Origin: a bacterium
GTDB taxonomy: Bacteria; Lindowbacteria; 2-12-FULL-62-27
NCBI GenBank assembly: GCA_016202645.1
Contig: JACQOF010000098.1
Span: forward strand, 1 to 62,297
Direction: 5' to 3'
DNA length: 62,297 bases
In this document: positions 7,801 through 25,281 of the stretch, in pieces
Numbering within the stretch: position 1 is the stretch's first letter
Layout: each line of letters begins with the position of its first letter
The notes under the pieces: generated by a model
What the model was told of the DNA's origin: nothing
The model's input: only the letters and a program-made list of their open reading frames with translations
The model's database searches: none
Made by a program: the position numbers and the translations under genes

Positions 7801-10800
7801 CCATTCGAGGCGTTGCCGGAGACGCTGTCGCCGGAAATCGTCGACTGGTCGACGTTCACGAATTTGATGCCGTTGGAGGCGCCCGTCACCGCGAGGTTTT
7901 TGATGGTCAGGCCGGTCTGGGTGTCGGCGTAGATGCCGTTCGCGCCTGAAGACGGCGAGTAGATCACGGTGGCGTTCGAGTCCTTGCCGATGATCGAGAA
8001 GTTGTCGGTGTCGATGACGATGGTTTCGGAATATGTCCCGGCGTCGACGAAAATCGTGTCGCCGGCGGAGGCGAAATTCACGGCGGTCTGGATCTTGCGC
8101 AGTGGCGCATTCGGTTTCACTCCGGAATTCGCGTCGGAGCCGACGGCCGACGTAAAGGAGTCGCCGGTCGTGGAGGTGTCGTTCACGTACCACGTGTTCG
8201 GCCCGGCCGTGTCAATCTGCGGCGCGGCGCTTTTGGTGTCGCTGAAAACGGATTTGTTGATATATCCGCCGGCGAGAGTTTCCGAGGCGGTCATGCGGTA
8301 GTAGTAGGTGACGCCGTCCGTGAGGTTGAGGTCGGTGAAGGAGGTGACGCCGGAAGCGACCTGCGCGATGAAGTTGTTTTTCCAGTCCTCGGTGTCGGGC
8401 GAGGTCGAGCGGTAAATGTTGTAGGCGCCGAATCCCCCGGGATTGGCGCTTCCCTCGTCGTCGAGGTCCGGCGTGTCCCACGTGACGATGATCTGGCCGC
8501 CGGTGGTTGAAAGACCGTTCAAGGTCACCGTGTCGGGCGGTTCGGGCGCGGCGGTATCGGCGGTGATCGTACGGGTATCAACGGCGGTGATGCGGATGGG
8601 GAAGAGTTTGACCGAAGTGTCGTTGACCATGCCGCCCAGGACGGTATTGATGTTGCTGGAACCCCACCAGTTCCGGCGTGCGTCGAAGTTCGGGGAGGCG
8701 CTGAAGTCGTCCAGCAGGGTCGGTTTCATGCCCGTCACGTTGTTCTTGACGAACGAATCGGCGCCCGCGGCGGAAAGCCAGAGGCCGGTGTCAGAATTTG
8801 AAATGTCGTTGTGATAGACGCGGTTCCCGCCGCCGGACGAGACGATCTCGACGGCGAAATTGGCCCGCCGCACGACGTTGTCGCGCACGACGTTGTTGGA
8901 TGTGTTGGTTTTCAATTTGATCCCGTGCCCGTGGCTGGTCGCTTCGCGCTGGTTCTCGACCGTGTTTTCGGCAATCACATTGTTCTGACTTCCGTTGTCG
9001 AAATGCACCGCGTCGCGGGCGATCTGGTGGATGTGGTTGTTCATCACGAAATCGAAGTTCGAGCTGTCGGCGGCGACGCCGAAGTAGAGGTTTTTGATGT
9101 CGTTATGCTGGACGCGAATGCCGGAGGATGCCGTCGTCAGGAACACGCCGTTGTGCTCGGCAGCGCTTACGACAAGCCCCTGCGCCGCCGAGGCGGTTGA
9201 GTCGATGCCGTCAATGAAAAATCCCTCGATGATGTTGTCGCTCGTCGCCTTGACGACCGTCCCCGTGTCAAACGCGATCTTCGCCCAAGTGTCCGGACCG
9301 CCGCCAGTGTCGGCGCCGAAGCGCTTCTTGTAGGAGACGAGGTGCAGGCCCGTGTCGAGGGTGAGGTCGATCTGTTGGAAATAGGAGTCGCTCGCGGATT
9401 TGTTGAAGACGATGATGGTGTCCCAGCCGTTCGAGGGGTTCAGTTTGGAAACCGCCTCGTTGATGTTCCGAAATGCCTTCGAGGTGTCGGCGGATTCCGG
9501 GTCGGATGAGTCGCCAAACTGGCTGACGTAGACAATGGAGACCCCGAGATCGGACCAGACGGGCTTGGCCGATTTTGTGTCGGTGAAAAAGCTTTCATTT
9601 TCGAAGGGCGTAATGCCGTCCGAGGCGGTCAGGCGGTAATAGTAGGTGACGTTGTTGGTCAGGCCCGTGTCGATGTAGCTGTTCGGGCCGGCGGCAACAT
9701 CCTTGATCAGAGCCGAGTCCCAGTGGGTCGAATCCTTGACCGTAAGCCGGAAAATCCCGACGCTTGCGAATCCGGTCAGCGCCTGCGAGTCCTCGTCCTG
9801 GGTCGGAGTGTCCCACCTGATCTGAACGGTCTCGTTCCCGGCGGTGAGGACGATCGATGTGTCGAACAAATACGGCGCGCTCGTGTCGGCGCCGGCGGTC
9901 GTGTCGACGGGGCCGAGGCGGTAGGGTTTGAAGGTCCACCCGGTATCGGTGAATTTCAGGGCGATCTGGTCCTCCTGGGTTGTGCCGTACCAGTTCCGGG
10001 CGACACGTTGGGATGTGGCCGCCTGATTGAGGAGATGGTTGACGATATTGTTGGTGATGTTATTTCGGGTGAAGAGGTTGCCGGAAGACGTGTTCTGGAT
10101 CGAGACGCCGGTATCGCTCAGGCTGATGTCATTTTGATAGACCACATTGTTGTCCGACGCGATGACGCTCAGTCCGGACTGGGCGTTGGAGGCGACGGTA
10201 TTGTTCCGGACGACGTTATCGTGCGAATTGATTTCGATGTATATCCCATTCGCGTTCTGCCGGGAAATGTTCCGGGTGAGGATGTTCCGGCGGGATGAGG
10301 AATTGAGGTGGAATCCCTGGGAATTTCCGACGGCGATGTTGTTGTCGATGGTGTTGTTGAAGCAGTTGGTGACGAGGTAGACACCCTGGTTCAAATTGAA
10401 GTAAAAGTTGCTGTTTCGAACCGTATTGCTGTCGGATCCGTCCTGAAAATAAATCCCGCGGCCGGCATTGTGGCTGAGGCTGTCGCCCTCGATGGTCGAG
10501 TTGGTAACCCGTACAAAATAAATGCCCTCGATCGCGCCCTTCACACCCAGATTTTTAATGAGCAGGCCGGACTGAGTGTCGGCGAAAATGCCGTTCCCGG
10601 ACGGCGGATCGATCACGGTGGCGTTGGAGTCCTTGCCGACGAGGCTGATCGAATCGGCGTCGATCACGACCGTTTCGGCGTAGAGCCCGGCGTCGATAAA
10701 GACGGTGTCGCCGGCCGTCGCCAGCGACAGGGCCTTGGTGATGGTTGCAAAGGGTTTCTGCGTTGTCCCATCGCCCGTCGTGTTTGATCCGACGGCGGAC

Positions 10801-13685
10801 GTGTACACGTCGCCGAGGACGGAGGCGTCATTGACGTACCAGTTCACACGGCTCGAAAAAGTCGCCGTGTCGCCAGGCTGTGAGTCGGAATAGAAACTCT
10901 CGTTGACGCGGGGGCTGGCGTTGTCGATGGCCGTGACGCGGTAGTAATAGGTTCGGCCGGGCTTGACGTCGGTGTCCTCGAAAAACTTGCCGGTGCTGGA
11001 GGGCTGGGCGATCAGGGTCCAGGACGACGTGTCCTTCGTTTCGCTCCGGTAGAGATTGTACCCGTTCAGCCCGAACGCCCCGGCGTCGGCGTCCTCGTTG
11101 GTGTCCGATGCGGCCCACCCGAGATGCACGGACGTGTCGGATGACCCGACCACGGCAACCGTGTCGGGCGCCTTGGGCGCGACGGTGTCGGCGCCGGCGG
11201 TGGTGTCGACTTCGCCGAGCCGGAAGGGTTGCCAGATGATGCGGTTCACGCCGCCGGTGTCGAAGAACAGTTTGTCGATGCGCGAGGAGTCAGTCGAGTT
11301 CCACCAGTTGCGGCTGAAATCGAAACTGTTGGCGGTGCTGTTGTAGACGCCGCTGTCGGGGTTTGCACCCGATGCAATGTTGTTCTTCCGCACCGTATTC
11401 GACGAAGACGATCCCTCGATGTAAATCTGGTACTGCGTGTTGTTCCTCACGTCATTTTGAACCACCGTGTTGTTCGAACTCGAAGACAGATAGATTCCGT
11501 AGTCCGAATTCGAATTGGCCGTGTTGTTGCTCACTGTGTTGTTCGAACTCAAACTGAGATAGATGCCGTAGATCGAATTCGAATTGGCCGTGTTGTTGCT
11601 CAGTGTGTTGTTGTTCGTATTCGAAACCAGATAGATGCCGTATGTATTCGAATTGGCCGTGTTGTTGCTCACTGTGTTGTTGCTCGAATTCGTATACAGA
11701 TAGATGCCGAATGTATTCGAATTCGCTGTATTGTTGCTCACCGTGTTGCTGTTCGAACTGGAATTCAGATAGATGCCGTTTGAACTTGAACTGACCGTGT
11801 TGTTGCTCACCGTGTTGTTCGAACTCGAAGTCAGATTGATGCCGTAGTTCGAATTCGAATTGGCCGTGTTGTTGCTCACTGTGTTGTTCGAACTCGAATT
11901 CAGAAAGATGCCGAGGCTCGTATTCGAACTGGCCGTGTTGTTTTTGACGGTGTTGGTGTCGGAATTGACGCGCAGGTATATGCCATAATTGCCGCAGGAA
12001 CTGGCGCTGTCGCTTTCGACTGTCGAGTTGTCCACATTGTAGAAATGCACCCCGTCATACGCCCCCGTCACGCCGATGTTTTTGATCGTGAGGCCAACCT
12101 GTGTGTCGGCATAGATGCCGTACAGCCCGCTGACCGTCTTCGGCCCCGGCGGGTCGATCACCGTCGCGCCGGAGTCCTTGCCGACCAGCGCGATCGAATC
12201 CTTGTCGATGTTGACGCCGGCGGTTTCGGAGCCGTTGACGATCGTGTAGGAGTCGTAGAGCCCGGCGTCGATGTTGATCGTCTCGCCCGAGGCGACTTCA
12301 ACCATGGCCTTGATGATCGTGCGGAACGGCGCGGAGGATTCGCCGGTGTTGGTGTCGGCGCCGACGGCGGAGGTGAGACCGTCCCCGGTGGTCGAAGCGT
12401 CGTTCACGTACCAGTTGGGGCCGTTGTAATGGCGGAGGATGAGAGCGGTGTCGGACGCGGTTTCGGACGCGCCCGTGACGTCGGTATAGGCGATGTGCAG
12501 AGTGTCGGAGCCTTCGGCGACAAGCTTTCCGTTTCCGATGCCGGGAGCCGCCCACGGCGCGACGATCATGGCCGAGGACCGGAAAATCCCGGTGGTCTCG
12601 GCCGACTCGGTGAGAACAACCGTTTCCGTGTCGAGTACCAGCCCGAGCGAGGCGGCGGTGCCGTCGCCCAGATAGACCGTCGCCGATACGGTGTCCTTCG
12701 ACTGGGGATTGCGGTTTTCGTCGGCATCTGTGACTTGGACGTAGATAGTGTCCTGCGACGTGTAAGTGTCGACGCCGTCGGTGAAGGCCGCGTCCTCGAA
12801 AAACGCGAGGGTGGCGGCCGAGGCGATCTCAAGGGCCAAGGCCGTGTCAAAGACGCTTTCGCCTGTTCCGGTAACATCCGTGTATACAACGTGGACGGTG
12901 TCGCCCGCGCCCCAGCTGACGATGCCGTCGTTCACGACCGGGACCTTCGTGTCCGTCACTTCGACGGCGGCGGTCTTGAACAGCCCGCTGACATTGGAGC
13001 TCTCCGTCAGGACGAGAGTTTCCGTGTCGATCACGAGGCCTGCCGCGTTGTCGCCCACATAGGCCGTGACCGTCAGAGTGTCGGTCGACTGGGGGTTCCG
13101 GTTTTCGTCGGTGTCGGTCACCCGAATGTACATCAGATCGCGTGTCAGAAGCGTGTCCACCTCGTCGGTATTGGCGGCGTCCTCAAAAATCTGTGCGAGC
13201 GCCGAACTTGCGATCTCCAGCGCCAGCGCCGTGTCGAAAGAATTGTCGGCGCCGTCGTCCTCGTCTGCGTAGGCGACGTGAAGGGTGTCGGACCGGCCCC
13301 AGCTGATTTGCCCGTCGCCGACGGACGGGGCCACCGTGTCGGTCACGCGCAGGGGAACGGCCGTGTCGAGAAACACGCCGCTATCTTCCATGTTTTCGGT
13401 GAGGTAGATGGTTTCCGTATCGAGAATCAGGCCGTTCGCATCGTCCGCGGTATAGACCGTGACCCACACGGTGTCGCGGGAGTTGGTGTCGACGTTTTCG
13501 TCGGTGTCGGTAACGCGGATGTAGATCACGTCCCGCGTCAAAAAGGTGTCGGAGATGTCGGTGTAGGCGGTGTCCTCAAAAAGTTCGACGACGGACGCGA
13601 AGCCGAATGCGGGCGAGGCGGCGAGGGCCAGGCTGAGGGCGGCGAGGGCGAGAAAACCGGTAATCGGTAATCGGTAACCGGTCAT
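1830..13685 (-). CDS. Giant secreted beta-helix/FN3 protein with FlgD/Por-like C-terminal sorting domain
   Basis: The 3951-residue product begins with a signal peptide (hydrophobic run about 11-28). Three ~127-residue Ig-like repeats follow, each with a VTD-DEN signature and a LTES...F end (about 33-420). Six parallel beta-helix blocks of NosD/PbH1 type then alternate with fibronectin-III domains (GYNLYR, TYYYRV signatures); four helix blocks open with a W-Y-V-N-D or W-Y-V-D segment. The C-terminus has Ig-like domains and a last ~90 residues of FlgD/type-A sorting form: YPNPGP, LKIFDMGGKLV, WDGTNKAG, SGAYIYIL. Such tails direct type IX-like export in FCB bacteria; no Por genes are in the window. 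Its start overlaps the stop of the coiled-coil gene by ATGA. The protein is very rich in D-T dipeptides. Likely an exposed or secreted adhesin-like or carbohydrate-active scaffold; function unproven. Confidence 0.85.
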   Translation of the reverse strand: MTGYRLPITGFLALAALSLALAASPAFGFASVVELFEDTAYTDISDTFLTRDVIYIRVTDTDENVDTNSRDTVWVTVYTADDANGLILDTETIYLTENMEDSGVFLDTAVPLRVTDTVAPSVGDGQISWGRSDTLHVAYADEDDGADNSFDTALALEIASSALAQIFEDAANTDEVDTLLTRDLMYIRVTDTDENRNPQSTDTLTVTAYVGDNAAGLVIDTETLVLTESSNVSGLFKTAAVEVTDTKVPVVNDGIVSWGAGDTVHVVYTDVTGTGESVFDTALALEIASAATLAFFEDAAFTDGVDTYTSQDTIYVQVTDADENRNPQSKDTVSATVYLGDGTAASLGLVLDTETVVLTESAETTGIFRSSAMIVAPWAAPGIGNGKLVAEGSDTLHIAYTDVTGASETASDTALILRHYNGPNWYVNDASTTGDGLTSAVGADTNTGESSAPFRTIIKAMVEVASGETINIDAGLYDSYTIVNGSETAGVNIDKDSIALVGKDSGATVIDPPGPKTVSGLYGIYADTQVGLTIKNIGVTGAYDGVHFYNVDNSTVESDSASSCGNYGIYLRVNSDTNTVKNNTASSNTSLGIFLNSSSNNTVSNNTANSNSNYGINLTSSSNNTVSNNTVSSSSNGIYLNSSSNSNTVSNNTANSNTFGIYLYTNSSNNTVSNNTANSNTYGIYLVSNTNNNTLSNNTANSNSIYGIYLSLSSNNTVSNNTANSNSDYGIYLSSSSNNTVVQNDVRNNTQYQIYIEGSSSSNTVRKNNIASGANPDSGVYNSTANSFDFSRNWWNSTDSSRIDKLFFDTGGVNRIIWQPFRLGEVDTTAGADTVAPKAPDTVAVVGSSDTSVHLGWAASDTNEDADAGAFGLNGYNLYRSETKDTSSWTLIAQPSSTGKFFEDTDVKPGRTYYYRVTAIDNASPRVNESFYSDSQPGDTATFSSRVNWYVNDASVLGDVYTSAVGSNTTGDGTTQKPFATITKALSLATAGDTVFIDAGLYAETVVIDADSISLVGKDSNATVIDPPSGNGIFADTQSGLLIKNLGVKGAIEGIYFVRVTNSTIEGDSLSHNAGRGIYFQDGSDSNTVRNSNFYFNLNQGVYLVTNCFNNTIDNNIAVGNSQGFHLNSSSRRNILTRNISRQNANGIYIEINSHDNVVRNNTVASNAQSGLSVIASDNNVVYQNDISLSDTGVSIQNTSSGNLFTRNNITNNIVNHLLNQAATSQRVARNWYGTTQEDQIALKFTDTGWTFKPYRLGPVDTTAGADTSAPYLFDTSIVLTAGNETVQIRWDTPTQDEDSQALTGFASVGIFRLTVKDSTHWDSALIKDVAAGPNSYIDTGLTNNVTYYYRLTASDGITPFENESFFTDTKSAKPVWSDLGVSIVYVSQFGDSSDPESADTSKAFRNINEAVSKLNPSNGWDTIIVFNKSASDSYFQQIDLTLDTGLHLVSYKKRFGADTGGGPDTWAKIAFDTGTVVKATSDNIIEGFFIDGIDSTASAAQGLVVSAAEHNGVFLTTASSGIRVQHNDIKNLYFGVAADSSNFDFVMNNHIHQIARDAVHFDNGSQNNVIAENTVENQREATSHGHGIKLKTNTSNNVVRDNVVRRANFAVEIVSSGGGNRVYHNDISNSDTGLWLSAAGADSFVKNNVTGMKPTLLDDFSASPNFDARRNWWGSSNINTVLGGMVNDTSVKLFPIRITAVDTRTITADTAAPEPPDTVTLNGLSTTGGQIIVTWDTPDLDDEGSANPGGFGAYNIYRSTSPDTEDWKNNFIAQVASGVTSFTDLNLTDGVTYYYRMTASETLAGGYINKSVFSDTKSAAPQIDTAGPNTWYVNDTSTTGDSFTSAVGSDANSGVKPNAPLRKIQTAVNFASAGDTIFVDAGTYSETIVIDTDNFSIIGKDSNATVIYSPSSGANGIYADTQTGLTIKNLAVTGASNGIKFVNVDQSTISGDSVSGNASNGIVLSQGSDTNTITENFTEFQTAGCGIYLEINSNNNTISRNRSRSNDNGIYLWNGSNLNQIIDNTVLSNTTSGIILQANSSRNTIVRNLVKSTVNQGIFIDNSDTNVVALNDLTANDTGLRIDGAAFANIITKNNLAGNIVSSVFNKSGVAQTLSRNWFGTTDEVALDADFEDTASAFRPYRLGLIDTAAGADTTAPSNVTGAATDVSSGVNVVLTWAVPTLQEETSGGTLGFTGAKIYRLTNSPDTSNWGNASLLVKTTAAADTTWTDTNVAVGNTYYYRLSSFDAASRVNASFFLDTLTALVAVPAWTGPVWYVDKDTGADTYTGHPNFPFKTIQGAIAGIPADSDLFDTILLDKNTYAETVVIDTDYIWIQGVDSGATGTVIDSGATDSGVANKYGIFADTQSNLVIKSLRVANMYRGINFLYVDNSRIEDVTVINNYENGINVADGSDTNTITKNMAQGNGFGTNDNQGIGLGGTPASSNNTVRQNYAVGNSAGIILFQSAVKNTIDSNTASSNATEGFVLEGSSSNNTLAYNVSQNNSGAGLSITGAASTNNVIRDNQSLTNGGAGISLDTGSNNNLFFRNLSDNNGGAGFDLTNADTNTFIQNESRRDLYGVKISASAGGDNSQNNKFVRGNILKPDSYGIYLANSQADTPFFWRNFMDTTNEGSLTDVITTSRSLFGLVRDVFDLPGLALAADTQPRFAMVDTSLSGDSLAPERPSPLTAVDSGAGSARIRWTAPTVNEDGGAATADFTGFKIYRTTNPSEKDWKTNAFRANAASASDTEFLDLTVTSGVTYYYRVTAVDAAAFVNESYFTDSLVVIPGSAFSDLGAMTVYVSGDGDSTNPTVDTPGTAFGDLIDALAALNPLNGYDTIVVFSSADNVGNDSYSIANNGGKGAVLDTGLTLISRKALFGSDTGGGGDTYPTVFWGGGAGSMIVIDSGARVEGFVIDGRDSSLGLKVVEINGSNSGLPAILRKNTVRNANYAVWVGAAGDNFTIESCTATAISKSAVEFNGNDGIIRNCLIDNVADTGIFQASGGNATIVDNIIRNIGGHGIDVEVGGNRIFRNTVRNVERAGVRVGSGSSFINANDIHNADTGVLLESPASSMEVSWNNITSTVHKLIQVVGSGNTITHNYFGTTDMQAISDSVISGFDNFAPFRFAVIDTKTASDTIAPSEPDTVTTDATVAGQVTVRWQPPPESEDGGPAGTISGYRVYRQVNSPDTTNWKALTQLSDTSATDTFIIDASVSAGNTYYYRVLAFDPAGNDGWMADTVSAVPIFGGSGSVRFVTSGGLDTTQYKAKASVAVVVEVNDSDGNANTGVKEGVNATIVNVTLGTDTEIISCTELTANSTIFSGTVTLSVTSGDGTPNNGLLYVRAGDQIKVTYTDLPSGPSLTDVADILAGGSGGDTVVIVGEQHFVISGSGPAVLEMQVKDSAGVAVPGVTVSFSVEYDGAAASGLNTSGTASDTGYLRQSLSLTSGDGVYAIVASSKSGDSDDATFVVMTDKRKVPAHATESPKSKWVMIAPMKKPVSASTALGQLSYGGTGNAYWHEPSLTNATGTFKGYYSMTGNEAHNVSSNGTVSIFEIGRGYWFRSSSATSVGLSGSPSAQTDTWSVKLTSGMNMIGNPFTHYINWMEDVAIDTNLNDTPNPLPIASISALNLTYIDTRLQWRDQSAEQYVNPISSSDSMQLKPWVGFWVKANTSCSIVYYPNKRIPQSVTAKQQAPKYTVSSGNLTNWLVRLMAHSGNSGIKDEYTFVGVAPAASDGEDMNDLWKAPGMLGDLQVLVGEARSASSPQGGEGKYYAASIAAPIKEATAWPVVVTAPPGLSAATLSWDLASLPQEYGAYMLGGPSGPVDLRGTQSLPLSLSPSLPLSLTLAVGLPEYLAPFLAAPLSKDNTFVYPNPGPDAAGNMSFKYNLQTAADISLKIFDMGGKLVREQKGSGIAGSNTITWDGTNKAGQKLGSGAYIYILESNGTKLIDKLAIVR
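2167..2208. repeat. GGGAGA word repeat inside the giant gene
   Basis: A run of GGGAGAGA/GGGAGAAA words lies in frame and encodes alternating Ser-Leu-Pro residues about 100 residues from the C-terminus. The same word family forms the end of MltG near 29411-29452. Confidence 0.75.
11450..11960 (-). repeat. 66-72-bp DNA tandem repeats encoding short beta-helix coils
   Basis: Seven to eight units of 22-24 codons, each with a SNNTVSNNTANSN core and a YGIYL turn, are nearly identical in DNA. One unit is one rung of a parallel beta-helix. The low divergence points to recent slippage or recombination, so copy number may vary between strains. Confidence 0.8.
13656..13684. repeat. GGTAATC word repeat overlapping the start of the giant gene
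   Basis: The words CCGGTAATCGGTAATCGG lie over the first ten codons, so the residues TGYRLPITG before the hydrophobic signal core are repeat-derived. This makes the exact native start uncertain. Confidence 0.7.
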
Positions 13686-14083: not shown

Positions 14084-14494
14084 GGGATTGACACTACCAG
14101 AAGATTGGGCAAACACAACCGGAAATGGACGGAGGAACCGGGTCCGAGGGCCAGTGAGACCGACACCCCAAGCCCCAGAGCCGCGACGACCAGCCACCCT
14201 CCGAACCTCTTCGAAACACCGCCCCACCCCTTGACGAATTGCCTGCCTGCTACCCCTTCGAGCGTATCCATAAGTCCATAAAATCGCTTATAGCTAGTAG
14301 CTATTAGCTAATAGCCAACAGCAACCCAATAAGAATGCCCGTGATCCTGCCACCCCAAGGTACCCGGTAGCCAGCGGACGGGGACTACAATAATACTGTA
14401 TATATATGTGTCAAGTGCTTTTTTTGAAACGTAGAGTATCTCCAGCAGAAAGCCGCCGGCGCATCCGAAACCGACCTTCTTAAACCCTTTTAAC
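14084..14494. other. Intergenic region upstream of the coiled-coil gene
   Basis: It holds an AATAGC tract (14286-14327) and, on the minus strand, a TTGACA box at 14414-14409 with a weak TATTGT-like box 16 bases further on. This could be the promoter for the coiled-coil/giant gene pair. I see no gene here. Confidence 0.4.
14286..14327. repeat. AATAGC-type short-word repeat
   Basis: Words such as TATAGCTAGTAGC and TATTAGCTAATAGCC match the tracts near 1745, 20606 and 26879. Confidence 0.75.
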
Positions 14495-14546
14495 CTGGGG
14501 CGGCAGGATTCGAACCTGCGAATAACGGCTCCAAAGGCCGCCGCCT
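14495..14546 (-). repeat. Duplicated 3' end of tRNA-Gln (attachment-site remnant)
   Basis: Positions 14495-14541 are identical over 47 bp to 20523-20569, the 3' part of the intact tRNA-Gln: anticodon arm, variable loop, T arm and 3' acceptor strand. After one mismatch four more bases match, then identity ends and the 5' half is absent, so this is not a working tRNA. Such 3'-end copies are the usual footprint of integration at a tRNA. Confidence 0.85.
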
Positions 14547-14639
14547 GATTTTTGTTAGTCACTCATAAATGAATGGGTTACAAAAGCCCATTTTTGATTT
14601 GGTGCCCAAATCGTGCCCATTTCCCGCATCCAAAATTGT

Positions 14640-14661
14640 TGTAAGTTTTCTGTAAGTTTTT
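14640..14661 (+). promoter_or_regulatory. 11-bp direct repeat, candidate response-regulator site (distal)
   Basis: TGTAAGTTTTC is followed directly by TGTAAGTTTTT, an 11-bp tandem spacing typical of OmpR/PhoB-family sites. It lies 76 bp before eptA. Confidence 0.5.
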
Positions 14662-14691
14662 CGGACGTTCCATACATTAACGAAAATTAAT

Positions 14692-14713
14692 CTTCCGTTC
14701 ATCTCCCGTTCAT
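14692..14713 (+). promoter_or_regulatory. 11-bp direct repeat, candidate response-regulator site (proximal)
   Basis: CTTCCGTTCAT is followed directly by CTCCCGTTCAT, again in 11-bp register, 24 bp before the eptA start. An OmpR-family regulator is encoded two genes downstream. Confidence 0.5.
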
Positions 14714-14736
14714 CTTCGCGCGGTAGACTTGCCGCC

Positions 14737-16335
14737 ATGACAAGAACCAAACTGCTCGCCGCCGCATCCGTTTTTTTGACGGTTTTTTATAATCCGGCGT
14801 TTTTCAGGAACGTGTGGGTCGTTTATCTTCCCTCCGCCAAAAATATCCCGTTTTTGATATCGATTGCGGTCCTCCTGCCCACCGTTATCTTTTTTCTCCT
14901 GTCCATCGTCTGTTCCAAACATACGACCAAACCCGTCCTCATCCTGCTCTTTCTCCTGTCAGCCCCCGCCTGCTATTTCATGGACCACTACAACGTCGTC
15001 ATCGACCACCTGATGATTCAGAATATTCGGGAGACCAACGCGAGGGAAGCGGCCGAATGGCTCAGCTTCAAATTGTTTGTCCATTTCCTCCTGCTGGGGA
15101 TCCTTCCATCCATTTTTGTTTACCGCGCGAAGATGGAACACGGGAATTTCAAGCGCGAGGCATTGTCCAGGTTGACGGCCGTCGTCTCCGCCGCCCTGGT
15201 CATGTATGTGGTCGTCCTTTCAATGAACAAACACTACGCTTCGTTTTTCACGGCGCAAAAGAGTTTGCGGTTTTACACCAACCCGACCTACTACCTGTAC
15301 TCCGCGTATAAATACGCCCGACTGAATTTCCTGCGCCCCGGACCCGTTGAGGCCATCGGGATGGATGCGCAAGGCTCCCCCGCCGATGCCGGCAGGGATC
15401 TGGTCATCCTGGTCGTGGGTGAATCGGCCAGGGCCGATCGATTTTCCATCAATGGATATGCCCGGGAAACAAACCCGCTTCTCAAAAAGGAGGATTTCAT
15501 CAATTTCCCCGGCATGCATGCGTGCGGAACATCCACGAACATCGCGGTCCCGTGCATGTTTTCGATCCTCGGCAAAGACCATTTCAGTCGCCGTAAGGCG
15601 GAATCGACCCAAAATATTCTCGACGTTTTGAACACCGCCGGCGTCAGCGTGTTGTGGAGGGACAACAATTCCAGTTCGCAGGGCGTGGCCGCGCGCGTTC
15701 CCTACGAGGACTATTTGTCACCCAAAACAAATCCTGTTTGTGATGTGGAATGCCGGGACGTCGGGATGATGGCGGGGCTGGAAGACTACATCGAAAGCCG
15801 CCCGGCCGGTGACATTCTCATCGTGCTTCATCAAAGGGGAAGCCATGGCCCCGCTTATTACGAGAGGTACCCGAAGGAGTTCGAGAAATTCACGCCTGCG
15901 TGCAACACCCCGCAGATCGAGTATTGCACGTCGGAAGAGATCAACAACGCTTACGACAATTCCATATTATATACGGACTATTTCCTGTCGAACGTCATCC
16001 GGTTTTTGAAAGGATACTCGACCCGGTTTGAGACGGCGATGATTTACATGAGCGACCATGGCGAATCGCTCGGGGAGGGCGGAGTCTATTTCCACAGCAC
16101 GCCCTATTTTCTGGCGCCGGAGGCCCAACGGCGCATTCCGGCTCTGATCTGGTTCGGTGATGCCTTCAAGAAGAACCTGGATATGGAGAAATTGAAAATC
16201 AAGGCGAAAACCGTATCCACCCCGGACATTCTCTTTCACACCTTGCTGGGGCTGATGGACGTCAACACATCCGTCTACGTTCAGCAGCTGGATTTTGTGG
16301 ATGGAACCAGAATCAAGTCCCGGGGCAACGGATGA
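14737..16335 (+). CDS. eptA: Phosphoethanolamine-lipid A transferase, EptA/MCR family
   Basis: The 532-residue inner-membrane enzyme transfers phosphoethanolamine to lipid A, lowering its negative charge and, in known cases, polymyxin binding. Five N-terminal membrane helices (about 8-170) precede a periplasmic sulfatase-fold domain. Visible catalytic features are E229 in VVGESARADRF, the nucleophile T267 in CGTSTNIAVPCMFS, the HQRGSHGPAYYERYP segment and SDHGESLGEGG for zinc. Several cysteines match the disulfide pattern of the family (C263/C273 region and NPVCDVECRD). Length matches MCR/EptA (about 540). It is first in an operon with pap2 and a two-component system, and two 11-bp direct repeats precede it. 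I use eptA for family; whether it gives resistance is not shown. Confidence 0.9.
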   Translation: MTRTKLLAAASVFLTVFYNPAFFRNVWVVYLPSAKNIPFLISIAVLLPTVIFFLLSIVCSKHTTKPVLILLFLLSAPACYFMDHYNVVIDHLMIQNIRETNAREAAEWLSFKLFVHFLLLGILPSIFVYRAKMEHGNFKREALSRLTAVVSAALVMYVVVLSMNKHYASFFTAQKSLRFYTNPTYYLYSAYKYARLNFLRPGPVEAIGMDAQGSPADAGRDLVILVVGESARADRFSINGYARETNPLLKKEDFINFPGMHACGTSTNIAVPCMFSILGKDHFSRRKAESTQNILDVLNTAGVSVLWRDNNSSSQGVAARVPYEDYLSPKTNPVCDVECRDVGMMAGLEDYIESRPAGDILIVLHQRGSHGPAYYERYPKEFEKFTPACNTPQIEYCTSEEINNAYDNSILYTDYFLSNVIRFLKGYSTRFETAMIYMSDHGESLGEGGVYFHSTPYFLAPEAQRRIPALIWFGDAFKKNLDMEKLKIKAKTVSTPDILFHTLLGLMDVNTSVYVQQLDFVDGTRIKSRGNG

Positions 16336-16366
16336 CCGGGAAGACGAAGGGAATCCCGGGTCGGCG

Positions 16367-17116
16367 ATGAGACGATTTGGCGGTGATTGGCGATTCGACA
16401 CGATGGTCTTCCTTGGTCTGGGCGCCGTGATCACGATCCTGTTCGATTGCACACAAATTGATATGGCCGCGGCGGAGCTTTTTTACAGCCCGCAATCGCC
16501 GAACCCCTGGCCGCTGGGCTGGCATGGGCTGTTGTCCTTGCCGCATGGAATGGCGCCGTGGATCACCACGACGTTGGTGCTCGTCGGGCTTGCCGCGCTG
16601 GCGGTGGGAGTCCGGCGTCGGAACGACACATGGCGCCGCACTGCGATCTTCATTCTGCTGAGCGTCGCGATCGGACCCGGGCTGATCGTCAACAGCGTTT
16701 TCAAGGAACACTGGGGGCGGCCCCGGCCGAGGGACATCCTGGAGTTTGGCGGTCGGAAGCAGTTCGCCCCCGCGCCGTTCAGGGGTGAGGGCGGCAAATC
16801 GTTCCCCTGCGGCGACAGCTCGGTGGGATTTTTGTTCGCCCTGGGCTGGTGGGTATGGAGGCGCGATCGGCCGAGGAGGGCCGCGGCATCGTTGGCGATG
16901 GGGATCGCTACCGGCGCGGCGGTGGGTCTGGGCCGCATGGCGGCGGGTGGGCACTTCCTCTCCGATGTCGTCTGGTCGGCGTTCCTGTCGCTTGCCGTGG
17001 CGCATGTCCTGTACAGCTACGTGCTCCGCATCCCCGCTCGCGAAGCACCGCTCCTTTTCCGTCCCATCCCCAAAAACGAAGGGGAGTCGGACTGGTGGAT
17101 GCGCCGGACGATATAG
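16367..17116 (+). CDS. PAP2-family membrane phosphatase
   Basis: The product is 249 residues with about five membrane helices and the three PAP2 motifs: KEHWGRPRP (motif 1), FPCGDSSVGF (motif 2, normally PSGH) and GRMAAGGHFLSDV (motif 3). The general acid histidine of the canonical PSGH is replaced by Asp, so either this is a subfamily variant or catalysis differs. The ATG at 16367 is preferred; a frame extending into the end of eptA exists but lacks PAP2 features. It sits 31 bp after eptA, the same gene order as the mcr-pap2 pairs known from mobile polymyxin resistance. A role in lipid A dephosphorylation or undecaprenyl-phosphate recycling is likely but not determined. Confidence 0.8.
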   Translation: MRRFGGDWRFDTMVFLGLGAVITILFDCTQIDMAAAELFYSPQSPNPWPLGWHGLLSLPHGMAPWITTTLVLVGLAALAVGVRRRNDTWRRTAIFILLSVAIGPGLIVNSVFKEHWGRPRPRDILEFGGRKQFAPAPFRGEGGKSFPCGDSSVGFLFALGWWVWRRDRPRRAAASLAMGIATGAAVGLGRMAAGGHFLSDVVWSAFLSLAVAHVLYSYVLRIPAREAPLLFRPIPKNEGESDWWMRRTI

Positions 17117-17127
17117 TGTAGATTGAA

Positions 17128-17817
17128 ATGATGAGACTTCTCCTGATCGAAGATGAAAAGCGGCTGGTTGCGTTTCTCCGGAAGGGTCTGCGGGAAGAAT
17201 CTTATGCGGTGGACGTGGCGACGAACGGCAAAGAAGGGCTGGAGCTCGCGCGGGCGGGTCATTATGATCTGGTTATTCTGGACATATCCCTGCCGCTCCT
17301 GGACGGCCTGGAAGTCTGCCGGACGCTTCGTCTGGAGGGCAACCTCACGCCGATTCTCATGCTGACGGCGCGAGACCGCGTCGAGGACCGCGTGAAAGGC
17401 CTCGACACGGGAGCGGACGATTACCTCGTCAAACCGTTTTCGTTCGATGAACTCTTGGCGCGTATCCGGGCGCTCCTCCGGAGGGGCGTGGCGGCCACGG
17501 ACGAAATCTCCTGCGGACCGATCCGGTTGAATCTCAAAACACGCAGGGCCTCGCGCGACGGTCGGGCCGTGGAACTGACCACCCGGGAATTTTCGTTGCT
17601 TGAATTCCTGTTTCGCCATCCAGACGAGGTCATCAGCCGCAGCCGCATTGCCGATCACGTCTGGGATTTTCCTTACGATTCCGAATCCAACGTCATCGAT
17701 GTCTTCGTCAACCGGCTCCGGTCCAAGCTCGACCCGGATCATCACTATCTGACAACCGTCCGAGGCGAGGGATACCGGCTTTGCGACAGGTCGCAAGCAT
17801 CGGGGAATCACGGATGA
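17128..17817 (+). CDS. OmpR/PmrA-type response regulator
   Basis: The 229-residue regulator has a receiver domain (acidic residues in IEDE, phospho-acceptor D52 in LVILDISLP, T80, K102) and a C-terminal winged-helix domain (TTREFSLLEFLFRHP, then VDVFVNRLRSKL-like recognition region and TVRGEGYRL). It begins 11 bp after pap2 and its stop overlaps the kinase start by ATGA. Family knowledge predicts binding to two direct repeats in ~11-bp register, as seen twice upstream of eptA. It most likely controls this operon in response to the adjacent kinase, as PmrA does for eptA in enterics. Confidence 0.9.
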   Translation: MMRLLLIEDEKRLVAFLRKGLREESYAVDVATNGKEGLELARAGHYDLVILDISLPLLDGLEVCRTLRLEGNLTPILMLTARDRVEDRVKGLDTGADDYLVKPFSFDELLARIRALLRRGVAATDEISCGPIRLNLKTRRASRDGRAVELTTREFSLLEFLFRHPDEVISRSRIADHVWDFPYDSESNVIDVFVNRLRSKLDPDHHYLTTVRGEGYRLCDRSQASGNHG

Positions 17818-19226
17818 ATCTGAGACTCAAACTCTCCCTCTGGTATTCTCTGATCCTGTTCGTATCCCTGTTCGCGGCCGGCATGGCCGGTTACTGGAGA
17901 ATCAAACACGTCCTCCTCCAGCAATTCGACATCGAACTGACCGATGAGATGTTCCTTGTGAACGCCCTGTATCAGGATGAAAAACGGGAAAGCGATATTG
18001 AGCGGTTCAAGGAATTTGTATCTCAAAGTGATTTCCACCATGTGGTTTTTGGAAAGAACCGGGAATACCTCTTCGGCTCAAAGGATATGTCTCACACATT
18101 TCCTGAAATGCTCCCGGAAGATTTCCGGCGGCTGGAAGCGGGTGCCACCCTTTTTCTACAGAAAGATATTGGAGACATCCCGCACCGAATCATCCTGCAA
18201 AAGGCCGGCGATGGCTCGGGCGACATCATCATGCTGGAAGAGCCTTTGAAAAGAGTCGATTACGTCATGGTTCGGCTTCGGGCCGCCGCTCTTGTCCTGC
18301 TCACGCTTTTTCTGATCCTCGCCATGACAGGTGGCTGGTGGATGGCCGGTCAGGCGCTGTCGCCGATCGGCGATGTTGTTCGAACCGCGACGCAGATTCA
18401 GGAATCCAATATGTCTCTACGCATCCCCGTGCCGGCAGCCCGGGATGAAGTTGGCCGGTTGATCGTAACCCTCAATACGATGCTGGATCGGATTGAATCA
18501 GCGTTCGATCAGATCCGGCGGTTCACGCAGGACGCCGCGCATGAGCTCCGAACACCTCTTTCGTCCATTTTGAGCGCCGTGGACGTCACCCTGCGCCGCA
18601 AAGACAGGACAGCGGGCGAATACCGGGAGGCTTTGGAGGCGGTGAGAGACGAAACCGTTCGCCTGCAAAAATTGTCAGATGACCTGTTGACCCTGGCGCG
18701 CGCGGAAGAAGGAAATTCGAATGGGCGGACCGAAGTGGCGGGACTGTGCGAGAGCGTTCTGAAAGATATGTCAGCGCAGATATCGGCCAAAGACGTGATC
18801 TGCGAGCTTCGTGTCGAGAAAGCGTATGTGCCCATGAGCGAGGACGCGCTGGCGAGGGCCGTCCGGAATCTGCTGGACAATGCCGTGAAATTCTCGACGC
18901 AGTCCGGCCGCATCCAAATCATCGGCCGGATCAGCGTCTCCGACGCCCCAGGTGCCGATGTCTCCGACATCGGCCGGCCCGTGGATCAATCCTATGATCT
19001 TGACGTGTCGGACGAAGGGCAGGGCATCCCGCCGGAAGATATTCCGCACATCTTCGAGCGCTTCTATCGCGGCGCCAACGCGCGAAGCGCCGATATTCCG
19101 GGAAGCGGAATCGGTTTGTCGATCGCCCGCGCGCTCGCCCGCCAGGCCGGAGGCGATCTGACCGCTGAAACCGCAGCGCCGCGCGGCTCGCGATTTCGTC
19201 TTCATCTGCCGTTGGCCGACGGCTGA
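17814..19226 (+). CDS. Membrane sensor histidine kinase (PmrB/QseC-like)
   Basis: The 470-residue kinase has a first membrane helix at about 9-29, a periplasmic domain of ~125 residues, a second helix (LVLLTLFLILAMTGGWWMAG), a HAMP linker, a HisKA box with the phospho-histidine in DAAHELRTPLS, and a HATPase domain with N box RNLLDNAVKFS, G1 DEGQGIPPEDI and G2 GSGIGLSIA. I chose the ATG at 17814, which overlaps the regulator's stop by ATGA, over an in-frame ATG 33 bp upstream. It is the partner of the preceding regulator. The periplasmic domain has no clear Fe-binding ExxE motif of PmrB, so the signal is unknown. Confidence 0.88.
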   Translation: MNLRLKLSLWYSLILFVSLFAAGMAGYWRIKHVLLQQFDIELTDEMFLVNALYQDEKRESDIERFKEFVSQSDFHHVVFGKNREYLFGSKDMSHTFPEMLPEDFRRLEAGATLFLQKDIGDIPHRIILQKAGDGSGDIIMLEEPLKRVDYVMVRLRAAALVLLTLFLILAMTGGWWMAGQALSPIGDVVRTATQIQESNMSLRIPVPAARDEVGRLIVTLNTMLDRIESAFDQIRRFTQDAAHELRTPLSSILSAVDVTLRRKDRTAGEYREALEAVRDETVRLQKLSDDLLTLARAEEGNSNGRTEVAGLCESVLKDMSAQISAKDVICELRVEKAYVPMSEDALARAVRNLLDNAVKFSTQSGRIQIIGRISVSDAPGADVSDIGRPVDQSYDLDVSDEGQGIPPEDIPHIFERFYRGANARSADIPGSGIGLSIARALARQAGGDLTAETAAPRGSRFRLHLPLADG

Positions 19227-19250
19227 GCGGACATATCTCGACAGGGCGAG

Positions 19251-20447
19251 CTAAATATTGAAAAGGGTCATCGGGTCGGCGCTGAAGTAGTCTTCCAAAG
19301 AAATTCCTTTCGGACCGATCAAGTAAATTTTGGCGGCAGGGAATCGTTTTCTGAATGCGCCCAGTCCCTCCATGCCGCCCAGACGGCCGCTTTTAACCTC
19401 GATGCCGATCCTCTTATTCCCGGCCGTGACGACGTAATCAACCTCCGAGTTTCGTTCCCGCCAGTATCCGGTGACGTATCTGGGCGGCGGCAGATGATTC
19501 AGCAGATGCGCTCCTGCCGCATTTTCGACAAGCCGGCCCCAGAAGGACGGATTGTCCCGGGCCTCTCGGAATGTATATCCGGAAAGAGCGCTGACCAGCG
19601 CGTTGTTCCAGACAACGATCTTGGGGCTGGTTCCGCGTTTTCTGGATTTGCCGGAGGCCTGCTCCAAGCCAGATACGAGGAAAGAGCTTTCCAAAAGCCG
19701 AAGGTAGTGGGCCAGCGTAACGGTATTCCCCGCATCTTGCAGAGAATTCAGCATCTTGTTGAATGAAATAATCTGCGCCGGATACTGGCAGGCAAGGCCA
19801 AACAGATGTCGAAGAAGCGCGGGTTTGGCGATCCGTTCAAGCGCCAGAACGTCCCGCGCGATGGCCGTTTCGATCAGCGAATCGGCGATATACTGTCGCC
19901 ACGTTGGCTCGTCCCGAATCAATCGGGCGGCCCCGGGATATCCGCCATAAAAAATCCATTGGTTCAGATCCCACCCGAACGCCGACCTGCATTCCGGATA
20001 CGACCAGTGCGGACACCGGTGCAGGAAGAACCGACCGGCGAGACTTTCCGTGAGGCCCTTTTGAACCAGCAGGGCCGAGGAACCGAGGAGCAGAAGCCGG
20101 ACGCTGCGGCGCCGGCGGTCTTCATCCCAAAGGGCTTTGACCATCTCGCTCCATCCCCGCACCTTCTGGATTTCATCCAAAATGAGCAGGGCCGATTTCT
20201 GTGGAGATTCCCGAGAGCGCTCCAAGGCCCGGTTCCAATGGACTTCTACCCATTCCGGTCCGGGCGGCACGGGCGAATCCGCCGTTGCGCGCACGACCGG
20301 ACCTTTCCATCGCGCCGCCAATTGTTCCGCGGCCGTGGTTTTGCCCGTCTGTCTCGCGCCGGCCACAATATGGATGAGAGACGGAGCGCGCCGTATGGAG
20401 GACTCGAGTTCCGAAACCAGCGATCGGGTATAATGTGCCTTGGACAT
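19251..20447 (-). CDS. AAA_14/DUF4143 ATPase
   Basis: The 398-residue protein has a Walker A motif GARQTGKTT (about 30-38), Walker B LLILDEIQKV, a sensor LLLLGSSALL, and a C-terminal DUF4143 region ending in a nuclease-like E-V-K (NSEVDYVVTAGNKRIGIEVKSG), which resembles the PD-(D/E)XK fold. Proteins of this family are widespread and uncharacterised in most genomes. It converges on the kinase gene (24 bp apart) and lies next to tRNA-Gln at the island edge. Upstream is a perfect palindrome with TACTCA half-sites that could be an operator. Confidence 0.85.
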   Translation of the reverse strand: MSKAHYTRSLVSELESSIRRAPSLIHIVAGARQTGKTTAAEQLAARWKGPVVRATADSPVPPGPEWVEVHWNRALERSRESPQKSALLILDEIQKVRGWSEMVKALWDEDRRRRSVRLLLLGSSALLVQKGLTESLAGRFFLHRCPHWSYPECRSAFGWDLNQWIFYGGYPGAARLIRDEPTWRQYIADSLIETAIARDVLALERIAKPALLRHLFGLACQYPAQIISFNKMLNSLQDAGNTVTLAHYLRLLESSFLVSGLEQASGKSRKRGTSPKIVVWNNALVSALSGYTFREARDNPSFWGRLVENAAGAHLLNHLPPPRYVTGYWRERNSEVDYVVTAGNKRIGIEVKSGRLGGMEGLGAFRKRFPAAKIYLIGPKGISLEDYFSADPMTLFNI

Positions 20448-20487
20448 GTTCAGAGGATAACCGAGGTCGACGCCGATGTCAACAAAA

Positions 20488-20516
20488 TACTCAGTGAATG
20501 AGTAAAAATACTCATT
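20488..20516. promoter_or_regulatory. Palindromic operator-like site before the ATPase gene
   Basis: A perfect 8-bp inverted repeat, AATGAGTA and TACTCATT, with a 4-base A spacer (20497-20516) is joined by a third TACTCA half-site at 20488-20493. The half-sites are 10-11 bp apart, i.e. on one face of the helix. Confidence 0.45.
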
Positions 20517-20522
20517 GACTAT

Positions 20523-20594
20523 CTGGGGCGGCAGGATTCGAACCTGCGAATAACGGCTCCAAAGGCCGCTGCCTTACCGCTTGGCGACGCCCCA
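20523..20594 (-). tRNA. tRNA-Gln (anticodon TTG)
   Basis: The minus strand folds as a complete 72-nt cloverleaf: acceptor TGGGGCG paired with CGCCCCA, D arm CGCCAAGCGGTAAGGC, anticodon loop CTTTGGA (TTG), and T arm with GGTTCGAATCC. No CCA is encoded. Its 3' 47 bp are duplicated at 14495-14541. Confidence 0.93.
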
Positions 20595-20605
20595 ATTCGG
20601 CTTTT

Positions 20606-20658
20606 GGCTGTCAGCTATTGGCTATTGGCTATTAGCTATTAGCCAACAGCGAATAGCT
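20606..20658. repeat. AATAGC-type short-word repeat
   Basis: GGCTATTGGCTATTAGC words between tRNA-Gln and the HNH gene; the outer words are inverted and can pair, so it may act as a terminator for the HNH gene. Confidence 0.75.
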
Positions 20659-21327
20659 TTAGGATTGTTGCGCGGCGCGCGAGATTGGCGGGAGGGCGAT
20701 AATTTTGACGGCGGACGGAAAAATCGGGCGGCCTTTGGGGTTGAGGAGATAATCGAGCCAGCCCAGTTTCCGGGCGCGGTCGAAGGAGACGATCATGGAC
20801 GGGACATATTCGGGTTCGTAGGGATCCCAGAGGAGTTTCAGGCCGAGTTCCCAGTGGTAGCGGTTGCCTTTTTTGGCGTTGCAGGGACGGCAGGACGCGA
20901 CTGTGTTCTCCCAGGAGTTCCAAGGGGCATGGACATTCTGGAGCTTGCCCGAGGGGGCCTCGTATTTTTTTCTAAGAGGCGCCGGGCAGGCATGCCACCG
21001 GGAGCGGGGGATGATGTGATCGCAGTCGAGGTCGTCGATCTTGCGGCGGACCCCGCACCACGCGCAGGTCTGGTCGTCGCGGTAGATGACCTTGAGCCTC
21101 GACCACGACGGGTTGGTCGGCATGCCGGAAAAATTCAGGAGCCGGACGACGCGGGGCAGGGGAAAACTGAGAAACTGAGACCGGATCAGCTCCGCCTCAT
21201 CGCCCTCCAGCAAGTCCGCTTTCTCGGTCACCACGAGGCACAAGGCCTCGAAAGCCCGGACGATCGAGACCGGCAGAAAGGCGCTGTTCAGAACCAGCGA
21301 CGGCTGTAAAAGCACGCTCGGCATCAT
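20659..21327 (-). CDS. HNH endonuclease family protein
   Basis: The 222-residue protein carries an HNH fold with two zinc-binding CxxC pairs: CAWC, then CDHIIPRSR with the catalytic His, W-N-S-W-E-N, and SCRPCNAKKGNR. The N-terminal part begins VLLQPSLVLNSAFLPV, a conserved start in this stand-alone HNH group, so the real start is one of the two tandem ATGs at 21327/21324. The C-terminal ~50 residues are not recognised. Family members are often called 5-methylcytosine-restriction-like but are also common as isolated genes with no known role. It is not clearly linked to its neighbours. Confidence 0.85.
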   Translation of the reverse strand: MMPSVLLQPSLVLNSAFLPVSIVRAFEALCLVVTEKADLLEGDEAELIRSQFLSFPLPRVVRLLNFSGMPTNPSWSRLKVIYRDDQTCAWCGVRRKIDDLDCDHIIPRSRWHACPAPLRKKYEAPSGKLQNVHAPWNSWENTVASCRPCNAKKGNRYHWELGLKLLWDPYEPEYVPSMIVSFDRARKLGWLDYLLNPKGRPIFPSAVKIIALPPISRAAQQS

Positions 21328-22849: not shown

Positions 22850-23749
22850 TCAGTACCCCGAGCCCGAGGGCGCGTCGCCCTTGACGATGGCGATGCCGGC
22901 CGAGGCGCCGATGCGGGTGGCGCCCATTTCGATCATCTGTTTGGCGGTTTTGGTGTCGCGCACGCCGCCCGAGGCTTTGACGCCCATGCCGGGGCCGACG
23001 ACGCGGCGCATCATGGCGATATCGGCGAGGGTGGCACCGCCGGGACCGAATCCGGTGGAGGTTTTGACGAAATCGGCGCCGGCTTCCTTGCAGAGCTGAC
23101 AAGCGATCATTTTTTCCTCATCGGTGAGAAGGCCCGTCTCCAGGATCACTTTGAGGGTGCGTGAACCCGCGGCTTTTTTGACTTCCGCAACGTCCCTCCG
23201 AACCGTGTCGTGGTCCCCGGCCTTGAGCGCTCCGACGTTGATGACCATGTCGACCTCCTCAGCCCCGTTCGCGATCGCGTCCCGGGTCTCGGCGGCCTTG
23301 GCGGCTGTGCTCGTCGCCCCGAGGGGAAACCCGATCACGGTGCAGACTTTGACGCCGGACCCCTTGAGCAGCTGAGCGCAGAGCGGCACCCAGAATGGAT
23401 TCACGCAAACCGACGCGAAATGATACTCACGAGCCTCCTTGCAAAGCTGTTCGATTTCAGCGCGGGTGGTCTGGGGTTTCAGGAGCGTGTGGTCGATGTA
23501 TCCCGCGAGGTTCGGCGCCGTGACGGGTTCGCCGAGGCGCGTTCCGAATCGCGTGGCGCCCATGTCGATGAATTCCTGAACGCCTTCGGGGTTCTGGACC
23601 CAGCAGGCGCAGCAGATTTCGCCCTCTTCCCGGTCGTGCGCGGAACAGGCCACGGACACGGCCCCGGCGTCCGGGGGAATCTGCCCGGTTTGCTCAAGTT
23701 CGCGGATGACGGCGGCGGCGATGCGTTCGATGGCCTCTTCGGAAATCAT
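22850..23749 (-). CDS. deoC: Deoxyribose-phosphate aldolase with microcompartment targeting extension
   Basis: This class I aldolase splits 2-deoxyribose-5-phosphate into glyceraldehyde-3-phosphate and acetaldehyde. The catalytic core spans about 75-299: Schiff-base K229 in DFVKTSTGF, relay K258 in VKASGGV and D168 in VDMVINVG. The C-terminus ends in Gly-Tyr, like the catalytic tail tyrosine of the E. coli enzyme. Ahead of the core are 75 extra residues. Residues 2-20 form an amphipathic helix ([19 protein letters not shown]) typical of encapsulation peptides, and residues 35-50 hold four cysteines (C35, C47, C48, C50) and H38. The start overlaps the pentamer gene's stop by ATGA. Acetaldehyde made here would fit a shell-enclosed pathway with PduL. 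Confidence 0.92.
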
Positions 23750-24135
23750 TTGGTCTTTCCCCGTTGATCATTCTTTTTCGGCCGGCCTCGCGGGCGGGCA
23801 TTGGGTGTTTTCACAGTCTCATCAGGCGAGGACGCGGCCGCGCCGGAGTTTCTGTAATCCGTGATCTCGTCGATGATCCCGACGATCACGGCGTTCGCCG
23901 GCGCGTACTCATCCGATTTCCGGATCGCCATCATCGCCGCGCGGGCGGCCGCGCCATGACGGGCGACCAGCGCCGTGTCGCCGACGCCGGCCTGGGCCGC
24001 ATCCACAGACAGAAACGGCTCGCCCTGCGGCTCGCCGCCCATCCCGACCTGCTGACAGATGAGCAGTTTCCACGAATCGAGACGCGGGTCCTTGCGGGTG
24101 GCGACGACGTTGCCTTTGACGCGGCAGATCAACAT
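23746..24135 (-). CDS. BMC shell pentamer (EutN/CcmL) with AT-hook-like tail
   Basis: The 129-residue BMC-P protein caps shell vertices. It starts [15 protein letters not shown], the usual EutN opening, and holds the fold through VIVGIIDEI (about residue 90). I chose the ATG at 24135 because the frame further upstream is only the GATCGCGG repeat. The C-terminal ~35 residues are extra, basic and disordered-looking, with the AT-hook-like core RPRGRPKKN. No ribosome site is visible, since the repeat abuts the start. The stop overlaps deoC by ATGA. Confidence 0.88.
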
Positions 24136-24136
24136 G

Positions 24137-24207
24137 AGATCGCGGATCGCGGATCGCGGATCGCGGATTTCAAAATCCGCAATTCGCAATCCCAAATCCA
24201 AAATCCC
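24137..24207. repeat. GATCGCGG word repeat inside the microcompartment operon
   Basis: Four GATCGCGG words, then AAAATCCGCAATTCGCAATC and CCCAAATCCAAAATCCC words, fill the gap between two pentamer genes and replace the expected ribosome site. The halves are partly inverted (GGATTT/AAATCC). Confidence 0.8.
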
Positions 24208-24210
24208 ATC

Positions 24211-24492
24211 TCAGGCGTTTTCATCGTAGTAGACATCATCCACCACCCCGACGCAACATTTGTCGACGGGCGGGGCGGCCGGTTCCAGGCCGAAGGGAAA
24301 GGTTGCCTCGCGGCCGCGCGCGAGGAGGACGATTTCGTCCGCGCCGGCGTCGACGCTTTCGACGGCGATGAAAGGCTTGCCGCGGTCCTTGAGATGAAAA
24401 TCGACCGGCTGAACGAGCAGGAGTTTCGTCTGTCGAAGTTTTGGATCCTTGCTGGTGGCCCAGACCCTGCCGAACACGCGCGCCAACTCCAT
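24211..24492 (-). CDS. BMC shell pentamer (EutN/CcmL)
   Basis: The 93-residue BMC-P protein opens MELARVFGRVWATSKDP and ends in the conserved VGVVDDVYYDE strand. Length is normal for EutN (about 90-100). It lies one base after the RpiB-like stop, so translation is likely coupled. It is one of three divergent pentamers in the operon, a number typical of some loci and thought to allow mixed vertices. The short KDRGKPFIAVESVDAGADEIVL segment matches the family's central region. Confidence 0.9.
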   Translation of the reverse strand: MELARVFGRVWATSKDPKLRQTKLLLVQPVDFHLKDRGKPFIAVESVDAGADEIVLLARGREATFPFGLEPAAPPVDKCCVGVVDDVYYDENA

Positions 24493-24493
24493 A

Positions 24494-24967: not shown

Positions 24968-24969
24968 GG

Positions 24970-25281
24970 TCAGACGGCCGCGAATTCCTGGTCGGATTTT
25001 TTGAAGACGATGGTGCCGTCGCGTTCGATCGAATCGATGATGGCGATGATGGCGGTATCGATCGGCACGTCCTTTTCCGGGACGGCCATCCGCGCGGAAC
25101 TGCCTTCGACGATGAACACAATCTCGCCGGGCCCGGCCTGGACGGCGTCGATCGCCACCAGATGCTTGCCGGAGGGTTTTCCCGCGAGGTCGACCGGCTC
25201 GACGACCAGGAGTTTATACCGCATGATTTTGTCGACCTTGCGCGTCGCCACGACGTTCCCGATCACCCGCGCGATTTGCAT
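24970..25281 (-). CDS. BMC shell pentamer (EutN/CcmL)
   Basis: The 103-residue BMC-P protein opens [18 protein letters not shown] and contains the family core GKHLVAIDAVQAGPGEIVFIV, ending AIIAIIDSIE. It follows PduL by nine bases and precedes the RpiB-like gene by two. GAGGATGTC just before the start provides a ribosome site. It is the first of the three pentamers in the operon and the most canonical. Confidence 0.92.
   Translation of the reverse strand: MQIARVIGNVVATRKVDKIMRYKLLVVEPVDLAGKPSGKHLVAIDAVQAGPGEIVFIVEGSSARMAVPEKDVPIDTAIIAIIDSIERDGTIVFKKSDQEFAAV

Follow-up and report, generated by a model that had tools for sequence, protein, structure and literature searches.

Chromosomal eptA genes typically lie with a two-component system (TCS), mcr-1 or mcr-2 with pap2, and mixed contexts have been reported (PMC10285318). 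In Xanthomonas, lpxE-eptA is found beside a ColRS-like system, and in Pseudomonas ColRS activates eptA under excess zinc (PMC8306577); in C. canimorsus, lpxE-eptA raises the minimum inhibitory concentration of polymyxin B (PMC4730577), and in E. coli a pap2 or dgkA gene linked to mcr adds slightly to colistin resistance (PMC7559476). Here, we describe a locus from a bacterium of the Lindowbacteria (2-12-FULL-62-27; assembly GCA_016202645.1) in which an eptA gene, a PAP2 phosphatase gene and the two genes of a TCS lie between an intact tRNA-Gln and a partial copy of it. The whole stretch analyzed, the 62,297-nucleotide contig JACQOF010000098.1, is referred to as the window. The segment is very probably an inserted mobile island, and we consider it likely that the island is a tRNA-Gln integrative element with regulated lipid A-modifying cargo. 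Its features, in window coordinates, are listed below.

14495-14546, minus strand: copy of the 3' part of tRNA-Gln, the putative distal attachment core (52 bp, 98% direct repeat)
14547-14661, no strand assigned: candidate attachment arm region, with a GGCAC pair at 14601-14618 and two AACTTAC-type repeats at about 14640-14661
14695-14715, plus strand: CCGTTCATCT direct repeat with an 11-bp period, a candidate response-regulator box just upstream of eptA
14737-16335, plus strand: eptA, predicted lipid A phosphoethanolamine transferase of 532 aa (PF08019 and PF00884; NF028537; active-site residues)
16367-17116, plus strand: PAP2 phosphatase, LpxF-like, 249 aa (PF01569; best NCBIfam match LpxF)
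17128-17817, plus strand: OmpR-type response regulator, heavy-metal-like (Pfam; TIGR01387)
17814-19226, plus strand: sensor histidine kinase with two predicted membrane helices (HAMP, HisKA and HATPase domains in Pfam; TIGR01386; hydropathy)
19251-20447, minus strand: AAA_14/DUF4143 ATPase, PADLOC candidate PDC-S01 (Pfam; PADLOC)
20498-20517, no strand assigned: palindrome AATGAGTAAAAATACTCATT (TGAGTA type), between tRNA-Gln and the DUF4143 gene, read from the sequence
20522-20595, minus strand: intact tRNA-Gln, anticodon TTG, the putative insertion target (ARAGORN; 74/74 identical to the gene of the sister genus)

Probable insertion at tRNA-Gln

Contig C74, the window, belongs to a 2.9-Mb genome (G000) that is 82% complete. 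The family comparison set consists of two further genomes, one from a sister genus (G001) and one from a third genus (G002); the remaining genomes searched are kin to G000 at the domain level only. A preliminary description of this DNA held that the intact tRNA-Gln and a copy of its 3' end frame about 6 kb with five gene types and no integrase, and this picture was borne out by ARAGORN and a direct-repeat search for the frame and by Pfam for the genes (EptA, PAP2, an OmpR-type regulator, a kinase and DUF4143). The copy, described there as 47 bp and exact, is real but measures 52 bp and carries one mismatch to the intact gene, in the same orientation. It scores E=1.6e-19 in a whole-genome search of G000, which returned no third strong match.

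In the sister genus, some 19 kb of different DNA comes after the same tRNA-Gln and ends in a 53-bp copy of the gene, and the DNA just inside that copy is 87% identical over 115 bp to the arm region of the window (E=3e-36 without the tRNA part). A further partial copy lies 0.8 kb past the first (G001:C6:63826-64676). The two copies are separated by a PIN-domain toxin-like gene and its small partner gene, an arrangement that suggests stepwise accretion at this tRNA. The exact pattern TTGGCAC-gap-TTGGCAC has four occurrences across the three genomes: those in G001 mark the two ends of its island, and those in G002 lie close to two tyrosine integrases. A full Phage_integrase domain was recognized in one of these integrases, an open frame of 405 aa, and on its 4160-base contig (G002:C2) the order runs from the integrase through AACTTAC and the GGCAC pair to tRNA-Arg(TCT); we regard this enzyme as a candidate for the type that moves these islands.

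An HNH-endonuclease gene adjoins tRNA-Gln in the window, G001 and G002 alike. Relatives without the island had been expected to show a single tRNA-Gln and no repeat. This holds for G002, where a genome search found no second strong copy, and EptA was found in neither G001 nor G002, but the G001 site is filled by other cargo. Because the arm DNA is common to the G001 island and its motif adjoins a G002 integrase, the 52-bp copy is best read as the attachment site of a tyrosine-integrase element and not as a stray tRNA fragment. Insertion at tRNA-Gln is strongly supported by the arm DNA shared with G001, the G002 integrase beside the arm motif and the lack of eptA in both family relatives.

The G001 island (G001:C6:44812-63826) carries a Cas12b CRISPR locus and AbiEii, and no integrase was recognized in it. 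That the same tRNA-Gln with the same arms holds a Cas12b locus in the sister genus is more unusual than the gene content of the window's island, and it marks the tRNA as a site of variable cargo. The Cas12b-like effector (L099:3379-8004) is an open frame of 1541 codons that scores 970 bits in PADLOC against a model of only 1009 positions. Also present are a Cas4-Cas1 fusion, a Cas2-like frame, a HerA helicase, a DNA methylase, a TOTE-type primase fragment and a CRISPR array of nine repeats with a period of about 73 bp.

Cargo of the island

The window EptA is predicted to be a phosphoethanolamine-lipid A transferase, as judged by model and active-site residues. It passes NCBIfam NF028537 for this activity with 585.9 bits (cut-off 500), and its E229, T267, H370, D440, H441 and H453 align with E246, T285, H395, D465, H466 and H478 of MCR-1, which we take to be zinc and nucleophile residues; Gln stands at the position of MCR-1 K333. 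The CGTST, WRDNNS, ECRDVGM and HGPAY segments noted earlier were all found in the translation. The best relatives are 46-57% identical and come from Desulfobacterota, Campylobacterota and a few other metagenome-assembled genomes, and of 395 genomes sampled from the phylum that gave the best match, only 16 had a strong one. In a maximum-likelihood tree, the enzyme falls in a 17-row clade with Desulfobacterota and Campylobacterota enzymes (support 97/95), within which its closest sister is unsure (88/74). No EptA relatives were confirmed in viral contigs.

The PAP2 protein passes Pfam and, among the superfamily motifs tested (KX6RP, PSGH, RX5HX3D), motifs 1 and 3 are present; it scores 98.4 bits against the LpxF model, below the cut-off of 400. 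No relative of it was found in G001 or G002, none of its relatives in 14 other genomes had eptA within 1.5 kb on either side, and a PAP2 of the window type was not found beside eptA in Desulfobacterota or Campylobacterota loci.

The regulator (251.8 bits against TIGR01387, cut-off 279.2) and the kinase (233.6 bits against TIGR01386, cut-off 292.55) are nearest to the CztRS/SilRS/CopRS heavy-metal models, the best of all models though under cut-off. A PmrAB identity was rejected, the regulator reaching 192.5 bits against the PmrA/BasR model (cut-off 330). OmpR-family regulators usually target direct repeats with a period of about 11 bp, and the CCGTTCATCT repeat is one of two exact runs of at least 10 at period 11 in the window; the arm repeat is the second. 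On the plus strand, the four genes follow one another closely, with gaps of 31 and 11 bp and then an overlap, and we read eptA-PAP2-regulator-kinase as one co-directional unit.

The DUF4143 protein matches PADLOC PDC-S01 over its full length (495.7 bits, residues 6-396), a family that is itself only a phage-defence candidate. The gene is not specific to the island because DUF4143/AAA_14 ATPases have many relatives in G000 (15 matches, with 9 in G001 and 8 in G002); no relatives were confirmed in viral contigs.

Proposed mechanism

We propose that the segment 14495-20574 is the cargo of an integrative element that would have entered the 3' end of tRNA-Gln(TTG) through tyrosine-integrase recombination. 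The element may later have lost its integrase and tRNA-proximal arm sites, with the DUF4143/PDC-S01 gene now in their place, or may have moved with an integrase acting in trans. The kinase would sense a signal in the periplasm, possibly a metal or envelope stress, and the regulator would bind the CCGTTCATCT box upstream of eptA and switch on the unit, including its own genes. EptA would then move phosphoethanolamine from phosphatidylethanolamine onto the phosphates of lipid A. The LpxF-like PAP2 protein would take a phosphate off lipid A or process lipid by-products. The joint effect of the two enzymes would be a less negative surface charge and tolerance to cationic peptides or metals. What we observe is the structure of the attachment site, the genes present, their lack in the family relatives, the conserved active site of EptA and an LpxC in G000; the signal, the regulation, the PAP2 substrate and the resistance are what we infer from the genes. 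Lipid A synthesis is plausible in G000 because LpxC is present.

More tentatively, we suggest a wider scheme that is possible though doubtful: tRNA-Gln would be a hotspot for integrase-less elements that are moved in trans by an integrase reading GGCAC/AACTTAC arms and that rotate survival cargo, with lipid A remodeling and PDC-S01 here and Cas12b CRISPR and AbiEii in G001, and eptA-PAP2-TCS would be a portable envelope-charge module with its own regulation.

Origin of the locus

Several observations weigh against an integrative element with regulated lipid A-modifying cargo. No integrase lies between the two repeats, by translation of open reading frames and Pfam; integrases are present elsewhere in the G000 genome, outside the island. 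Arm sites are missing from the tRNA-proximal end, where the DUF4143 gene and the AATGAGTAAAAATACTCATT palindrome are found instead, the palindrome occupying the place expected for them. A base-exact empty site was not obtained from the three genomes, the distal flanks of which are unlike one another, and no match to the G002 gene on the left of tRNA-Gln was found in G000 or G001. As to the cargo, the regulators stay below every curated cut-off shown, and the PAP2 protein may be weak or inactive because motif 2 reads PCGD, with Asp in place of the His that is found in 14/14 homologues compared (PSGH or PCGH). The assembly of G000 is also incomplete.

Composition adds a further point against it. 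Relative to a reference of about 160 kb of G000 with 95 open reading frames, the codon use of the five island genes is ordinary (2nd to 44th percentile of distance). Alien codon use was therefore rejected, and the deviation in codon use expected from the preliminary description is absent, although the total GC of eptA is low (53%, 6th percentile). Horizontal acquisition is the best reading of these data, though a recent transfer from a compositionally foreign donor does not fit them.

The alternative that survives best, although we consider it unlikely, is that an element inserted at tRNA-Gln while eptA-PAP2-regulator-kinase was an older resident or a separate arrival that became enclosed by rearrangement. 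Ordinary codon use, the missing tRNA-proximal arm sites and the dissimilar left flanks of the three genomes would all be compatible with such a history. It is harder to reconcile with the start of eptA, which lies 75 bp from the arm region and inside the repeat pair, with the absence of EptA from both family relatives and with nearest EptA relatives that belong to other phyla.

The preliminary description also raised the prospect of an environmental ancestor or relative of the polymyxin-resistance mcr cassettes, which we now regard as very improbable. The placing of a PAP2 gene after an eptA-type gene does recall mcr-1-pap2, and EptA is about 40% identical to MCR-1 with motifs in common. However, EptA fails all NCBIfam MCR family models by a wide margin (best MCR-6, 398.1 bits against a cut-off of 1235), the PAP2 protein reaches 22.3 bits against the PAP2_near_MCR1 model for the mcr-1 pap2 (cut-off 475), and TCS linkage is typical of chromosomal eptA (PMC10285318). 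The EptA/MCR tree, which had been called for as a check, places the window enzyme with the Desulfobacterota/Campylobacterota EptA clade, apart from MCR-1, MCR-3, MCR-8, MCR-9 and E. coli EptA.

Least credible of all is that the 52-bp copy is a leftover of ordinary tRNA gene duplication with no integration, since, even though partial tRNA copies can arise in this way, the DNA beside the copy recurs at the corresponding place in G001, with other DNA lying between copy and tRNA there, and the arm motifs lie beside an integrase in G002.

Other features of the window

We considered whether TAGC-type repeats outside both island ends (14286-14322 and 20600-20664) mark the ends of a duplication and rejected this, since they are short dispersed repeats. 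These GCTATTAGC/GCTAATAGC intergenic patches recur at about 1761 and about 26907 and on two other G000 contigs, and are absent from the G001 and G002 stretches read. A single open frame of 3951 aa (1830-13685), made up of repeats, adjoins the distal attachment site; its C-terminal segment resembles a secretion/anchoring tail. Near the left contig end, at 484-1404, lies an IS200-like (Y1) transposase-type protein with a DnaA C-terminal-like helix-turn-helix. On the far side of tRNA-Gln, a microcompartment-type cluster at 22850-27173 encodes DeoC, RpiB, two EutN/CcmL shell proteins, a PduL-type phosphotransacylase and an actin-like ATPase.

Comparison with known systems

In summary, the island is real but fairly ordinary as a mobile island, and the data do not support it as an ancestor of clinical mcr cassettes. 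What merits attention is that, in a lineage with few sampled genomes, a tRNA island carries an eptA gene together with a phosphatase gene and a TCS of its own. The locus fits the view of repeated eptA mobilization (PMC10285318) and indicates that linkage of eptA to a TCS and linkage to PAP2 are not mutually exclusive; the two joined on one tRNA island look uncommon.

Among described systems, the Xanthomonas raxRH-arnT-lpxE-eptA locus and the Pseudomonas ColRS regulon likewise place EptA and a lipid A phosphatase beside a metal-tied TCS, but they feature LpxE, arnT and divergent regulators and are not described as a tRNA island (PMC8306577), whereas in the window an LpxF-like PAP2 gene belongs to a co-directional unit carried by an island. 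E. coli eptA-basR-basS (pmrCAB) shares the order of eptA directly followed by regulator and kinase; it is without PAP2, and the window regulators are not PmrAB by model. The lpxE-eptA operons of H. pylori and C. canimorsus encode a phosphatase and an EptA that act in turn on lipid A, with LpxE acting at position 1 (PMC4730577); a similar sequence of action may apply in the window, and its PAP2 protein is nearer to LpxF (4').

Mobile counterparts differ in other respects. The mcr-1-pap2 cassette also carries an eptA-type gene and then a PAP2 gene on mobile DNA, but its MCR-1 and pap2 lie on other branches than those of the window and it is without a TCS. A Pseudoalteromonas plasmid with eptA-CDF-PAP2-dgkA beside CusA/CzcA resembles the window in its mobile eptA with PAP2 and in its metal context, though its EptA is 43.8% identical, dgkA and CDF are added and no TCS lies in the stretch read. 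Finally, tRNA-integrated islands, including integrase-less CIME-like ones, share with the window an intact tRNA at one end, a 3' copy with arm sites at the other and variable cargo; relative to them, the window island is set apart by the absent integrase and the one missing arm region.

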